Positions 5,473 through 63,704 of a DNA stretch of 64,000 bases are shown here, in pieces (position 1 is the first letter of the stretch; the number at the start of each line of letters is the position of its first letter). The notes below the pieces were generated by a model. The model ran no database searches and was not told where the DNA came from. It was given only the letters and a program-made list of their open reading frames with translations. The position numbers and the translations under genes were made by a program. The stretch is from Stenotrophomonas maltophilia (GTDB lineage Bacteria; Pseudomonadota; Gammaproteobacteria; Xanthomonadales; Xanthomonadaceae). The stretch covers positions 62,001-126,000 of the forward strand of contig NZ_RXLZ01000001.1 of the NCBI RefSeq assembly GCF_003970865.1, written 5' to 3'.

Positions 5473-5528
5473 GGGGCAGGGGTCTTCATGCCGGAGTGCG
5501 ATGGCAATTGTAGCGGTGAATGCCGATG

Positions 5529-5607
5529 GTAGTGCCGGCCGCTGGCCGGCAGATGCGACCCGGCGTCGCAGATCGTTCCAGGGTTGCCGGCCAGCGGCCG
5601 GCACTAC
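5529..5607. repeat. SMAG palindromic repeat, inverted dimer
   Basis: Two arms in opposite orientation, GTAGTGCCGGCCGCTGGCC and its reverse complement ending in CACTAC, separated by about 35 bp. Each arm is itself a GC-rich hairpin headed by GTAG. This is the form of the SMAG repetitive extragenic elements known from S. maltophilia. It sits between the divergent ccmA and aminotransferase genes. Confidence 0.88.
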
Positions 5608-5660
5608 CGCAGCAGGGATTGCGTAAACTCAGGGGCCTGTCTCCCCATATCCCCAGGCCG

Positions 5661-9749: not shown

Positions 9750-10550
9750 ATGAAATCAGACATGGCCTGGTTGCAGCCGCACGCGCACTTCGACGCCGAT
9801 GCCTGGAGCGCTCCGGTGCTGGGGATCGCGGCCTCACTGGCGGATCACGACTCGGGTTGGCACCAGCATGCACGCGCGCAGCTGCTGTACACCCGGCAGG
9901 GCTGTACGCGCCTGACCTACGGTGATCGCATCAGCCTGCTGCCGCCCGCGCGCGCAGCGTGGATTCCGGGTGGGCTGCGCCATCGCGCGCAGATGCGCCA
10001 GGCGGTCGACTACCGTTCGTTGTACTTCGACGCCACCCTGTCGGCCCAGCTGCCCCGGCAGCCGGCGATCATTGGCGTGGGTCCTCTACTGCAGGCCTTG
10101 CTGGAGCCGATCGCGCAGGCACCGTTCGACCATGACTGGCAGTCGCCGCGCGCACACCATCAACTGGCGTTGTGCGTGCTGGAAATTGCCGCTGCACCGG
10201 TGGCGCCGATGGACCTGCCTCTGCCGCGTGATCCGCGGATCGCACGTTGCCTGCCGCTGGCCGAACAGCTGCCGCCTGAACTGGGGGAGCTGGCCGCGCG
10301 CACGGGCTTGAGCGCGCGCACCGTCGGCCGGTTGATGCAGCGTGATACCGGCATGAGCTATCAGGCCTGGCGCCAGCAATGGCGCCTGATGCGGGCCATG
10401 GAGTTGCTGCTGCTGGGCCACCGCGTCGCCCATGTGGCCCAAGACACCGGCTTCTCCGCCGAGAGCCCGTTCATCGCCTTCTTCCGCAGCATGACCGGCA
10501 CCACACCCGCCGCTTTCCAGCGCCACGCAAAAGGGGACGGAGGGGATTAA
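9750..10550 (+). CDS. AraC-family transcriptional regulator
   Basis: A 266-residue regulator. The N-terminal half is a cupin-like sensing domain (HQHARAQLLYTRQGCTRLTY, then LLPPARAAWIPGG). The C-terminal half is an AraC DNA-binding domain with two helix-turn-helices (LAARTGLSARTVGRLMQRDTGMSYQAWRQQ and VAHVAQDTGFSAESPFIAFFRSMTGTTPAAF). It is divergent from the MFS gene and presumably controls it. ATGs at 9717, 9750 and 9762 are in frame; 9717 lies inside the inverted repeat. The last six residues (KGDGGD) and the stop codon are supplied by the palindromic repeat that follows. Confidence 0.88.
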   Translation: MKSDMAWLQPHAHFDADAWSAPVLGIAASLADHDSGWHQHARAQLLYTRQGCTRLTYGDRISLLPPARAAWIPGGLRHRAQMRQAVDYRSLYFDATLSAQLPRQPAIIGVGPLLQALLEPIAQAPFDHDWQSPRAHHQLALCVLEIAAAPVAPMDLPLPRDPRIARCLPLAEQLPPELGELAARTGLSARTVGRLMQRDTGMSYQAWRQQWRLMRAMELLLLGHRVAHVAQDTGFSAESPFIAFFRSMTGTTPAAFQRHAKGDGGD

Positions 10551-10613
10551 GTCGTTTTCGCCGCTTCGACACACGCCGTGGCAAAAGCGACTTAATCCCC
10601 TCCGTCCCCTTTT
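10529..10613. repeat. Long inverted repeat with 26-bp arms (AAAAGGGGACGGAGGGG family)
   Basis: The left arm (10529-10554) and right arm (10588-10613) are perfect reverse complements over 26 bp, and pairing continues with mismatches into the 33-bp centre. The same arm sequence forms a complete palindrome at 56123-56190. It starts inside the AraC coding sequence and ends before a terminator, between convergent genes. Confidence 0.9.
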
Positions 10614-28329: not shown

Positions 28330-28344
28330 CGCAGACGCGCTCCG

Positions 28345-28529
28345 GTAGGTGCCAACCTTGGTTGGCACGGACGTGTCCGCGTGCACTCAATCAACGGCGC
28401 CAACCAAGGTTGGCCTCTACCAAAGCAGTGACCCTGCGCGGGTTGTGCCCTGGTGGGTGCGAACCTTGGTTGGCACGGGCGTGTCCGCGTGCACTCAATC
28501 AACGGCGCCAACCAAGGTTGGCCTCTACC
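28345..28529. repeat. Two direct copies of a 77-bp GTAG-headed inverted repeat
   Basis: Copies at 28345-28421 and 28453-28529 are nearly identical. Each has a GTGCCAACCTTGGTTGGCAC hairpin, a shared linker (TGTCCGCGTGCACTCAATCA), and an inverted arm ending CTCTACC. The first begins with GTAG; the second has GTGG. The shape is that of SMAG dimers with a different core. They lie between the glucan operon and rne. Confidence 0.88.
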
Positions 28530-33294: not shown

Positions 33295-33356
33295 GGTAGC
33301 GCCGGGGCAGGCCCGGCCGCTACCTTGTTTGGGTAGATCCACGCCATGCGTGGATG
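33295..33356. repeat. Two short GTAG-headed palindromes
   Basis: GTAGCGCCGGGGCAGGCCCG... (33295-33324) is a monomer of the SMAG type with a different core. GTAGATCCACGCCATGCGTGG (33333-33356) is a second type with an ATCCACGC core, also seen at 45442-45545 and 51302. They lie between convergent rluC and zupT. Confidence 0.8.
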
Positions 33357-37511: not shown

Positions 37512-37549
37512 GCAGGGCGCGCGCCACACGCTGGCCGGCTCGCGCTTGG

Positions 37550-37640
37550 GCAGGTGCCAACCTTGGTTGGCACAGAAGCGCCGACCAAGGTCGGCATCTA
37601 CCAAGGCATCAATGCATGCCGACCTAGGTCGGCATCCACC
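37550..37640. repeat. SMAG-type repeat cluster, CCAACCTTGG and CGACC cores
   Basis: A GTGCCAACCTTGGTTGGCAC hairpin, an inverted arm GCCGACCAAGGTCGGCATCTACC and a third arm GCCGACCTAGGTCGGCATCCACC lie in a row, between convergent genes. Confidence 0.82.
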
Positions 37641-45441: not shown

Positions 45442-45545
45442 CATCCACGCATGGCATGGATCTACTGCGATCACGCAATCGTATGGTGGATCCACGCGAT
45501 GCATGGATGGTTCCCAGTAGTAGATCCACGCCATGCGTGGATGGC
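45442..45545. repeat. Three palindromes with the ATCCACGC core
   Basis: ATCCACGCATGGCATGGATC, GGATCCACGCGATGCATGG and GTAGATCCACGCCATGCGTGG lie in a row. The last matches 33333-33356 and a further copy lies at 51302. They sit between cfa (+) and the peptidase gene (-). Confidence 0.8.
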
Positions 45546-48389: not shown

Positions 48390-48457
48390 GTGGCAGTGCC
48401 GGCCGCTGGCCGGCAATCCCGGAGCGCACGGAGAGCCGGCCAGCGGCCGGCACTACC
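48390..48457. repeat. SMAG repeat, inverted dimer
   Basis: Two arms of the GTGCCGGCCGCTGGCCGGCA type in opposite orientation with a 19-bp spacer. The header of the first arm has changed from GTAG to GCAG. It lies between convergent genes. Confidence 0.86.
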
Positions 48458-51256: not shown

Positions 51257-51351
51257 TCGGGGTCAGAGCCCTTTGCGAAGCGAAGGGGTCCGACCCTCCC
51301 GCATCCACGCATGGCATGGATCTACCGTGTCGACCAAGGTCGACACCTACC
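51257..51351. repeat. Mixed intergenic repeats (GGGGTCAGAGCCC and ATCCACGC types)
   Basis: GGGGTCAGAGCCCTTTGCGA with an imperfect inverted arm AAGGGGTCCGACCC at 51257-51297, then an ATCCACGC palindrome (51302-51325) and a CGACCAAGGTCG arm ending CACCTACC. The ATCCACGC type recurs at 33333 and 45442. Confidence 0.7.
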
Positions 51352-55484: not shown

Positions 55485-56120
55485 ATGAGCACCACGCTGT
55501 ATGGTTCAACCAGTACTGCCGCCCTTGTGGTGCACTGGCTGCTGATCGAGCTGGGCATCGAGCATGAACTGGTGCTGCTGGATTTCGACGCGCGTGAGCA
55601 CAAGTCGGCGGAGTACCTGGCGCTGAATCCGGCCGGTGTGGTGCCGACGCTGCTGATCGATGGCTTGGCACTGACCGAAGCGGCGGCCATTGCGTTGTAC
55701 CTGGCTGATCGCCATCCGGACGCCAACCTGCTGCCCCAGGTGGGTACGCCGCAGCGCGCCGATGCCTACCGCTGGATGTTCTGGTGTGCCAATACGCTGC
55801 AGCCGGCCTATCGTGCCTGGTTCTACCCGCATGAGATGGCGGGGGAGGCGAATATCGAGGCGAGCCGCGAGATGGCCCGTCAGCGCCTGGAAGCAGCCTG
55901 GCAGCATGTGGCCACGCACCTGCAGGCGCATGGCCCCTACCTGCTGGGCACCACGCCCTGCGTGGTCGACTACATGCTGGTGATGCTGATGCGCTGGTCG
56001 CGCAACATGCCCAAGCCCAGCGACACCTGGCCGGTGCTGAAGGCGCATGCCACGTCGATGAAGGCGCGCCCGGCGTTCGCCGAGGTGTACCGCCGCGAAG
56101 GCATCACCGACTGGCGGTAA
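55485..56120 (+). CDS. Glutathione S-transferase family protein
   Basis: A 211-residue protein with a thioredoxin-like N-terminal domain (YGSTSTAALVVHWLLIELG, NPAGVVPTLLIDGLALTEAAAIALYLADRHP, the last containing the cis-Pro and Ser/Glu of the glutathione site) and a helical C-terminal domain. It likely conjugates glutathione to electrophiles or serves as a reductase. The gene ends 2 bp before the perfect palindrome at 56123. Confidence 0.9.
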   Translation: MSTTLYGSTSTAALVVHWLLIELGIEHELVLLDFDAREHKSAEYLALNPAGVVPTLLIDGLALTEAAAIALYLADRHPDANLLPQVGTPQRADAYRWMFWCANTLQPAYRAWFYPHEMAGEANIEASREMARQRLEAAWQHVATHLQAHGPYLLGTTPCVVDYMLVMLMRWSRNMPKPSDTWPVLKAHATSMKARPAFAEVYRREGITDWR

Positions 56121-56122
56121 TC

Positions 56123-56190
56123 AGAAAAGGGGACGGAGGGGATTAAGTCGTTTGTGCACAAACGACTTAATCCCCTCCGTCCCCTTTTCT
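56123..56190. repeat. Perfect 68-bp palindrome (AAAAGGGGACGGAGGGG family)
   Basis: The sequence reads the same on both strands over all 68 bases, with its centre at 56156/56157 (GTGCAC) and no spacer. The outer 26-bp arm is the same as that at 10529-10554. It fills the gap between the stop codons of the convergent GST and arsC genes almost exactly. Confidence 0.95.
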
Positions 56191-56191
56191 G

Positions 56192-56533
56192 TTACAGGAG
56201 CTCCAGCACCGTTTCCGGTGGGCGGCACAGCCGGGTGCCCTTGGGTGCGCGCACCACGGGGCGGTTGATCAGCCGTGGGTGTTCGGCCATCGCGGCCAGC
56301 AGCGTGGCCTCGTCCGCACCTTCCAGGCCCAGTTCGGCGAACTGCGCTTCCTTGCTGCGCACCAGATCACGCGCGCTCAATCCGGATTCGGCCAGCACCT
56401 GGCGCAGTGTGGCCACATCGGGTGGACTGCCGAGGTACTCGATCACCACGGGATCAAAGCCCGCATCGCGGATCAGCTTCAGTGCGCCGCGCGAGTTGCT
56501 GCAGGCCGGGTTGTGCCAGATCGTCACGTCCAT
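56192..56533 (-). CDS. arsC: ArsC-family arsenate reductase (glutaredoxin type)
   Basis: A 113-residue protein with the active-site cysteine C11 in IWHNPACSNSRG and the Arg residues that hold the arsenate oxyanion (RLINRPVV). It reduces arsenate to arsenite using glutaredoxin. No arsB, arsR or arsH is nearby, so it may act with genes elsewhere. Its ATG shares one base with the pldA stop (TGATG), suggesting coupled translation. Confidence 0.9.
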   Translation of the reverse strand: MDVTIWHNPACSNSRGALKLIRDAGFDPVVIEYLGSPPDVATLRQVLAESGLSARDLVRSKEAQFAELGLEGADEATLLAAMAEHPRLINRPVVRAPKGTRLCRPPETVLELL

Positions 56534-57687
56534 CAGAACCACTCCAGCAGGGACACGCCCACGCCCACATAGGTGGCCTTGTGGTTGTAGTCGATCAGGC
56601 TTTCGCCGTAGCCGTCGAAGACCTGCACATGGCCGCGCAGCAGGTTGCTGATCGGGAAGCCGTAGTCCAGCTGCAGGGCGCCGTGCGAGCGGCTGCCGGT
56701 ACGCAGCGAATGACGCGCCATCAGCGAGACTTCATGGCCGTTGCGGTTCCAGGTCAGGGTCGCGTCACCGCGGCCCATGTAATCCTCGATGTCCGGGTTG
56801 TTGTCGTCGCTGCGGGTCTCGGGAATGCGGTACCACGGCCGCAGCACCAGCGCCCAGTTCTCGCGGTCCAGGCCGATGTTGAGCATCACCCGGTTCCAGC
56901 TGCGCGACAGCGGATCGGCGCGGCCGTTGGACTGGTGGTTCAGCGCGATGCCGGTCATGCGCCCGCGCCAGCCGCCGATCGAGTAGCCGTTGCGGAACAC
57001 CATCATCACTTCCGGCTCGTAATTGGTTTCGCGGAACGGGCGCGAATCCTCGCTGTTGTAGGCCTGCCAGCGCGAGCTCTGGGTATAGCCGGCCCAGATG
57101 TCGCCGTTGTCGCCGAACAGGTTCTCGGCGATCTTGGTCTTGAAGCTGATCTGGAACTTCAGTTCGGCACTGTCCAGTACCTGCGGCGTGGTGACCGTGT
57201 TGGCCGGATTCGGCGAATGCGGTGTGGTGTTGCGGTCGCTGGTCCAGAACGCCGGCAGCAGGTACACCGGCTTGTAGGCACGCAGCTGGAACGGGCCCAG
57301 CTTGGAGTCCTCGGCCAGTTCCCAGCGGCTGTCCAGCAGCGAGCCGCGGCCAGCGTTGGCCAGCGCGCTGTCCGGTGCTGCCGGACGGAACAGGTCGCTG
57401 ACCCGTTCGCGCAGCTTCTCTTCGCCCTGGCTCACGCGTGCGGTCTGTCGTTCTTCGCGACGGGCCTGCGCGGCTGCCTCGGCGGCAGCGTCGGCCGCCG
57501 CTGTGGCCTGCGGGGTGTGTGCGAACAGCCGGTCATAGCAGGCCAGGCGCGCCGCGTCGGTGGTGATGGCGGCGCACGCAGCAGGCGAGGTGTCGGTGCT
57601 GGGCACGAACTCCTGCGCGGCCAGCGGCGCACTGGCCAGGGCCAGCGCCAGCGGCGCGAGGCGGGGAAGCAGCGGGGGGAGGGTCAT
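56533..57687 (-). CDS. pldA: Outer-membrane phospholipase A (OMPLA)
   Basis: A 384-residue outer-membrane enzyme. The signal peptide ends near APLAAQEF. The catalytic core matches OMPLA: NHQSNGRADPLSRSWNR holds the His and Ser of the catalytic site, and the conserved Asn should be downstream. A C-terminal beta-barrel ends VGVSLLEWF with a terminal Phe. It hydrolyses phospholipids that reach the outer leaflet and keeps outer-membrane asymmetry. An Ala/Arg-rich helical insert follows the signal peptide, absent from E. coli PldA. Confidence 0.9.
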   Translation of the reverse strand: MTLPPLLPRLAPLALALASAPLAAQEFVPSTDTSPAACAAITTDAARLACYDRLFAHTPQATAAADAAAEAAAQARREERQTARVSQGEEKLRERVSDLFRPAAPDSALANAGRGSLLDSRWELAEDSKLGPFQLRAYKPVYLLPAFWTSDRNTTPHSPNPANTVTTPQVLDSAELKFQISFKTKIAENLFGDNGDIWAGYTQSSRWQAYNSEDSRPFRETNYEPEVMMVFRNGYSIGGWRGRMTGIALNHQSNGRADPLSRSWNRVMLNIGLDRENWALVLRPWYRIPETRSDDNNPDIEDYMGRGDATLTWNRNGHEVSLMARHSLRTGSRSHGALQLDYGFPISNLLRGHVQVFDGYGESLIDYNHKATYVGVGVSLLEWF

Positions 57688-60784: not shown

Positions 60785-60860
60785 GGTAGTGCCGGCCGCT
60801 GGCCGGCATCTGCGCTGATCGAATCATTCCGGAGTTGCCGGCAAGCGGCCGGCACCTACC
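60785..60860. repeat. SMAG repeat filling the tcdA-tatD gap
   Basis: An inverted dimer of the GTAGTGCCGGCCGCTGGCC type occupies essentially the whole space between the stop codons of the convergent tcdA and tatD genes; nothing else fits there. Confidence 0.88.
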
Positions 60861-63528: not shown

Positions 63529-63538
63529 GCGTTGCCCG

Positions 63539-63611
63539 GTAGTGCCGGCCGCTGGCCGGCAACCTCGTTGCAGCAGGAATCGTGCAATTGCCGGCCAGCG
63601 GTCGGCACTAC
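63539..63611. repeat. SMAG repeat, inverted dimer
   Basis: GTAGTGCCGGCCGCTGGCC and its complement with one mismatch (GGTCGGCA), separated by about 26 bp. Located after the GNAT gene. Confidence 0.86.
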
Positions 63612-63704
63612 CTGGGCGCCATGCTGCACCCGCGCTTGGCATTCACAGACGCGCTTGCCAGACTGCACGCAGCCGGCCGCCGGCCGGATGTGATGGAGCA
63701 GGCA

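Follow-up and report, generated by a model that had tools for sequence, protein, structure and literature searches.

A perfect palindrome between gst and arsC of Stenotrophomonas maltophilia and its probable origin in a transposase-linked repeat family

A long perfect palindrome occupies the gap between a GST-like gene and arsC, which converge on it, in Stenotrophomonas maltophilia. We consider it probable (about 0.75) that this palindrome belongs, as a non-autonomous copy, to a family of transposable repeats in whose full element two inverted arms enclose the gene for an IS200-like Y1/HUH transposase of the RAYT/TIRYT type. Four observations bear on this reading: the shared arms, the arm-flanked transposase, the many copies per genome, and the presence or absence of copies between genomes. 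The short copies would be internal-deletion or end-to-end versions with little beyond the arms left, moved in trans by that transposase as single-stranded hairpins. Copies would persist mainly where harm is small, namely directly behind stop codons and most of all in gaps between converging genes, and their A-tract, GC-rich stem and T-tract, identical on both strands, could end transcripts from both sides. Mirrored changes in both arms would maintain the symmetry, whether the hairpin is under selection or serves as a template for correction. The palindrome would probably be a selfish repeat that is tolerated in the role of a transcript end for both directions.

The palindrome and its copies in the genome

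The window, which is the whole stretch of 64,000 nucleotides that was analysed, corresponds to C97:62001-126000 of a draft genome of 185 contigs (G000). It contains the following features.

55485..56120, plus strand: GST-like gene, running toward the palindrome
56122..56191, no strand: palindrome, made of a 56-nt core, A/T tracts and CAG/CTG ends
56126..56151, plus strand: left 26-nt arm, AAAAGGGGACGGAGGGGATTAAGTCG, common to the ends of the transposase element
56162..56187, minus strand: right arm, the exact reverse complement of the left arm
56192..56542, minus strand: arsC, of the glutaredoxin-type arsenate reductase family, running toward the palindrome from the opposite side
10529..10613, no strand: second copy of the family in the window, with a 77-nt core, between convergent genes
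10548..10550, plus strand: TAA within the second copy, the stop codon of an AraC-family regulator

The initial annotation had described a 68-bp palindrome without a loop, lying 2 bp from the GST stop codon and 1 bp from the arsC stop codon. Self-complementarity without loop or spacer was confirmed in the window sequence, and the perfect stretch was found to be 70 bp (56122-56191). The near-contact with both genes also held, with corrected distances of 1 bp from the GST stop codon (56118-56120) and 0 bp from the arsC stop codon (56192-56194, minus strand). The second-longest perfect palindrome of the window is 20 bp, and the longest one in each of 20 first-order Markov shuffles of the window was 16-24 bp; a chance origin was rejected, since the shuffles reached 24 bp at most. 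The RNA folding energy of the palindrome was -63.3 kcal/mol, compared with a shuffle mean of -17.9. A known structured RNA was likewise rejected, as Rfam gave zero matches in the window at gathering thresholds.

We searched the G000 genome for the 22-nt arm core, GGGGACGGAGGGGATTAAGTCG, allowing up to 3 mismatches. This yielded 82 sites (43 forward and 39 reverse), and the reversed-pattern control yielded none, confirming that the palindrome has other genomic copies, as the initial annotation had supposed. The 40 stretches around the arm sites held 38 tight inverted pairs, one 842-bp pair enclosing a gene, and 6 solo arms. Core lengths of the tight pairs were 56 (8 pairs), 57 (10), 65 (2), 66 (1), 67 (2), 68 (8) and 75 (2), with 77, 78, 91, 92 and 103 nt represented once each, giving size classes of 56 (8), 57 (10), 65-68 (13), 75-78 (4) and 91-103 (3). 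The core sizes cluster near 57, 68 and 77 nt (L042-L074), in steps of ~11 nt, or about one helical turn. By eye, the 91-, 92- and 103-nt copies retain sequence that resembles the right end of the full element on its inner side. Every one of the 38 tight pairs is bordered by A and T tracts of 3-7.

The usual short centres are TTTGTGGCACAAA in the 57-nt core and TTTGTGCACAAA in the 56-nt core, so that the perfect form is one base off a common form. PMC6060812 describes E. coli as poor in inverted repeats with units of at least 13 bp and short spacers. The view that a palindrome of this kind is rare because it is unstable is weakened here by perfect cores in 3 of the 38 tight pairs of the genome, the gst-arsC copy among them, and in 9 of the 12 copies at gst-arsC in different genomes. 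The palindrome is a well-preserved member of a known repeat kind, one of ~40 copies in this genome, not a freak.

The second copy in the window (10529-10613) carries the same 26-nt outer arm and has an overall length of 85 bp and a centre of 33 nt, in agreement with the earlier description. The accompanying proposal, that a spacer had been lost at gst-arsC or gained at the second copy, did not stand: given the size classes and a 56-nt core at the orthologous site in 11 further genomes, origin of the palindrome through loss of this 33-nt centre was rejected. The second copy also encodes the last residues, KGDGGD, of the AraC-family regulator. Several published Stenotrophomonas GTAG-type REP families are found in the window as well, at up to 3 mismatches (5528-5608, 28344-28476, 33295-33355, 37549-37573, 45443-45542, 48392-48457, 51303-51326, 60785-60808 and 63538-63612).

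A transposase gene between the same arms

Four Y1_Tnp matches were found in the G000 genome. One of the transposase genes, C131:11100-11795, sits between a left and a right arm in an element of ~0.85 kb, which bears out the suggestion in the initial annotation that a REP-type tyrosine transposase might carry the same arms. Its product of 232 aa scored 38.9 bits against Pfam Y1_Tnp (cut-off 23), and its translation contains HVH and a later tyrosine, which we take to be features of the Y1/HUH catalytic type. Counting against the assignment, the score with NCBIfam NF047646 (REP-associated tyrosine transposase) was 77.3 bits, below the cut-off of 80. Pfam gave no match to a C-terminal helix-turn-helix domain, Y1_Tnp being the only match at E<=0.001.

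Relatives of the C131 transposase were detected in 47 of 91 genus genomes at E<=1e-20, and in 20 of the 91 at an identity of at least 61%. In this last group the arms lie on both sides of the gene in 20/20 cases; the outer end of the first arm is 116-144 nt ahead of the matched frame, and that of the second is 28-68 nt past it. With up to 2 mismatches allowed, arm copies were present in 41 of the 91 genomes, comprising 20/20 of those with the gene at 61% identity or more and 21/71 of those without it. Among carriers, the median number of forward sites was 41.5 with this gene and 23 without it, kinship being ignored in the comparison. The copies in the 21 carrier genomes without a close transposase gene, which count against the transposable-family reading, are so either inherited relics or were moved otherwise.

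Copies of the gst-arsC arm were absent from the six genomes that possess a transposase relative of 50-54% identity. Four of these six sister transposases have related arms of the GGGACGGAGGTAGTTAA type, and the other two have other variants. The sister-arm pattern occurred at 9-20 sites in five of the six sister genomes, many of them arranged as close inverted pairs, and at 0 sites in G000 and G048. Since the sister transposases carry shifted arms together with matching sister repeats, arms and transposase shift together. The sister transposase group comprises L141-L146, and the sister palindrome lies in some of the same gaps as the family studied here (L309, L311-L313, L317 and L349). Transposase relatives of ~45% identity (L147, L148, L150, L213 and L220) sit within self-complementary GGGGTCAGAG...CTCTGACCCC repeats. 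A flanking repeat above a low score was absent from 8 of 22 transposase genes tried, which were picked from 80 loci.

Gene ends, orthologous gaps and possible function

The 39 pairs, counting the transposase element, were 23 convergent, 14 co-directional, 1 divergent and 1 inside an ORF, as called with a home-made codon-usage caller. The convergent share exceeded that of neighbouring gene pairs in the window (11/63; Fisher p 3e-5). For 14 of the 23 convergent pairs, neither stop codon was more than 10 nt away from the A/T-tract ends, and the stop codon of the upstream gene was within 10 nt or overlapped in 33 of 36 convergent or co-directional copies (raw count, transposase element excluded). 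A solo arm in L036 and a pair in L037 were called as lying inside an ORF by the same caller. For two other families, REPs no more than 20 bp from either 3' end of a convergent gene pair are on record (PMC3733652), so the filling of a convergent gap appears to be a habit of these repeats.

We compared the same gaps in relatives, using 46 loci for the gst-arsC gap and the best-scoring 30 loci for each of five other copies' gaps (196 in total). The palindrome family was held by 83 loci and not by 91, with 16 unplaceable and 6 over 400 nt; the count of 83 takes in six own-genome loci and one 23-nt remnant, and is biased upward because the gaps were picked for the element's presence in G000. Element presence in orthologous gaps thus counted differs between genomes. 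Among the 91 gaps lacking the element, 84 contain an inverted repeat of 8 bp or more and 73 exceed 95% of their own shuffles, and by eye many of the 91 hold GTAG-REPs from the Stenotrophomonas list in PMC2817692. The median gap length was 80 nt with the element and 89 nt without it. Counting against the transposable-family reading, neither a transposition event nor a clean empty site with intact flanks was found among the gaps compared, in which loci lacking the element mostly hold other repeats. Since insertion into an intact gap would add ~64 nt, replacement, or independent arrivals followed by trimming, looks likelier.

The gst-arsC gap held 12 complete copies, our own included, all with the 56-nt core and 9 of them perfect; L100, at a contig end, is counted, and the remnant L089 and the truncated L091 are left out. 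In six genomes (L166, L168, L171, L172, L173 and L175) the e1 gap measured 1.2-1.5 kb and ended in a single right arm, with no left arm beside it.

The palindrome might instead be mainly a bidirectional intrinsic terminator that the host keeps, spread by recombination for its usefulness, with the link to the transposase being historical; we regard this as possible, if doubtful. A consensus scan found a terminator-like site on each strand (2, against 0.9 expected in shuffles), and the A/T tracts at 38/38 pairs, the convergent bias and the retention at one site in 12 genomes would all suit such a function. It accords poorly with the lack of copies in about half of the genus, the service of the same gaps by other repeats, the co-directional setting of 14 of the 39 pairs, and the conservation of the arms as a sequence that recurs at the ends of the transposase element, a feature for which a terminator has no need.

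A tentative and rather unlikely extension is that gene ends facing each other in Stenotrophomonas act as slots in which hairpins are exchanged. Instead of entering empty DNA, the palindrome and unrelated REP families would then substitute for each other in one gap, maybe through strand exchange templated by the hairpin or through replacement guided by the transposase; correction templated by the hairpin would keep the arms alike.

We investigated changes in the arms with 14 distinct 56-core sequences from three loci, these rows being related to one another and selected as members of the family. Pairing was preserved in 97.1% of cells. Changes on both sides affected 4 pairs and 12 cells, compared with 3.7 cells in shuffles (0/500 shuffles reached 12), and slid structures gave at most 1 cell with a change on both sides. 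Significance was weaker for the number of pairs with both-side changes (20/500 shuffles), and further pair types did not exceed the shuffles (140/500). In the e1 set, RNAalifold gave one pair with a double change. These results support, and do not prove, that arm changes are often mirrored in the opposite arm. Four co-directional copies show six one-sided transitions in all, and a G-U pair on the transcribed strand results from none of them; by this reading of the sequences the six transitions do not favour selection at the RNA level, and the DNA level may contribute as much as RNA function to keeping the symmetry.

Hairpins after stop codons have been proposed to stabilise transcripts or to slow ribosomes in the case of the E. 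coli REPs. A corresponding main role of the palindrome, stabilising the mRNA 3' end or slowing ribosomes just past the stop codon, would fit the raw count of 33 in 36 copies at the upstream stop and is opposed by the lack of G-U pairs in those six transitions, and we judge it unlikely. A DNA structure or protein-binding site at convergent gene ends, such as a cruciform or a gyrase or regulator target, is more improbable still: perfect symmetry and mirrored arm changes suit a two-fold site or a DNA hairpin, and the centre between the 22-nt arms ranges from 12 to 59 nt in length, which speaks against it.

An assembly fold-back artefact can be given almost no credence: the genome is a draft, and the contigs of two relatives (L091 and L100) terminate within or beside the palindrome, which in L100 is directly preceded by a sequencing-adapter-like stretch, but an identical perfect core fills the same gap in the single-contig relatives G060, G048, G038 and G035, which makes the short-read artefact raised in the initial annotation unlikely. 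G048 shares the coordinates of S. maltophilia D457, NC_017671.1.

Points worth following are the perfect core held in common, the mirroring of arm changes and the way different repeats alternate in one gap. The six compared gaps lend themselves, as a natural series, to the question of whether palindromic repeats of bacteria enter gaps or take one another's place, and they also bear on whether such hairpins act as two-way transcript ends.

Comparison with known repeat systems

Bidirectional intrinsic terminators between convergent genes resemble the palindrome in having an A tract, a hairpin and a T tract usable on both strands; the palindrome differs in being a dispersed repeat with a fixed sequence common to a transposase element. 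Like MITEs, the family consists of short non-autonomous copies that retain the ends of a full element, but its parent is a Y1/HUH element rather than a DDE transposon, and no target-site duplication was identified.

The GTAG REPs, REPINs and RAYTs of Stenotrophomonas (Nunvar et al. 2010, PMC2817692) are similar in that a tyrosine transposase is flanked by genome-wide repeats near gene 3' ends. The palindrome arm differs in that it lacks the GTAG foot, and in that the 26-nt arm forms no hairpin alone, the two arms pairing together. Membership in the GTAG REPs was rejected, as neither a GTAG nor a GTGG foot was found in the arm or at its edge. The four arm strings had no match in the literature text searched, a body of text outside which figures and most subscription papers lie.

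The closest likeness is to the TIRtrons, the TIR repeats of TIRYT genes, of which two families were described in S. maltophilia K279a, at ORFs 1152 and 4509 (Di Nocera et al. 2013, PMC3733652). In these, the inverted ends of an IS200-like tyrosine transposase gene recur as singles and as close inverted dimers. In our case, inverted copies flank the C131 transposase of G000 and 20 relatives, and 38 tight pairs and 6 solo arms are present. The arm GGGGACGG differs in having G, not A, at the seventh base of the GGGGWSAS motif, which the same source gives for some TIRs only and which is hence not required. A further difference concerns the TnpAREP subclass 2.1, to which 20 of 26 described TIRYTs belong and which has a helix-turn-helix tail (PMC6006769); the C131 transposase lacks such a tail detectable by Pfam.

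From genome position, the palindrome family is probably the TIR family of K279a ORF 4509, described in outline in 2013. The D457 copy of the C131-type transposase gene, at 4,555,454, points to ORF 4509; a relative of 44% identity, located near 1.19 Mb in D457 and belonging to a group that has GGGGTCAGAG arms elsewhere, points to ORF 1152, in both cases by position only. The sections of PMC3733652 consulted do not describe perfect copies, size classes, mirrored arm changes or alternation with other repeats. In assays of binding and cutting, this transposase family, with its nearly invariant 26-nt arm, and the sister group with shifted arms would form a clean pair.
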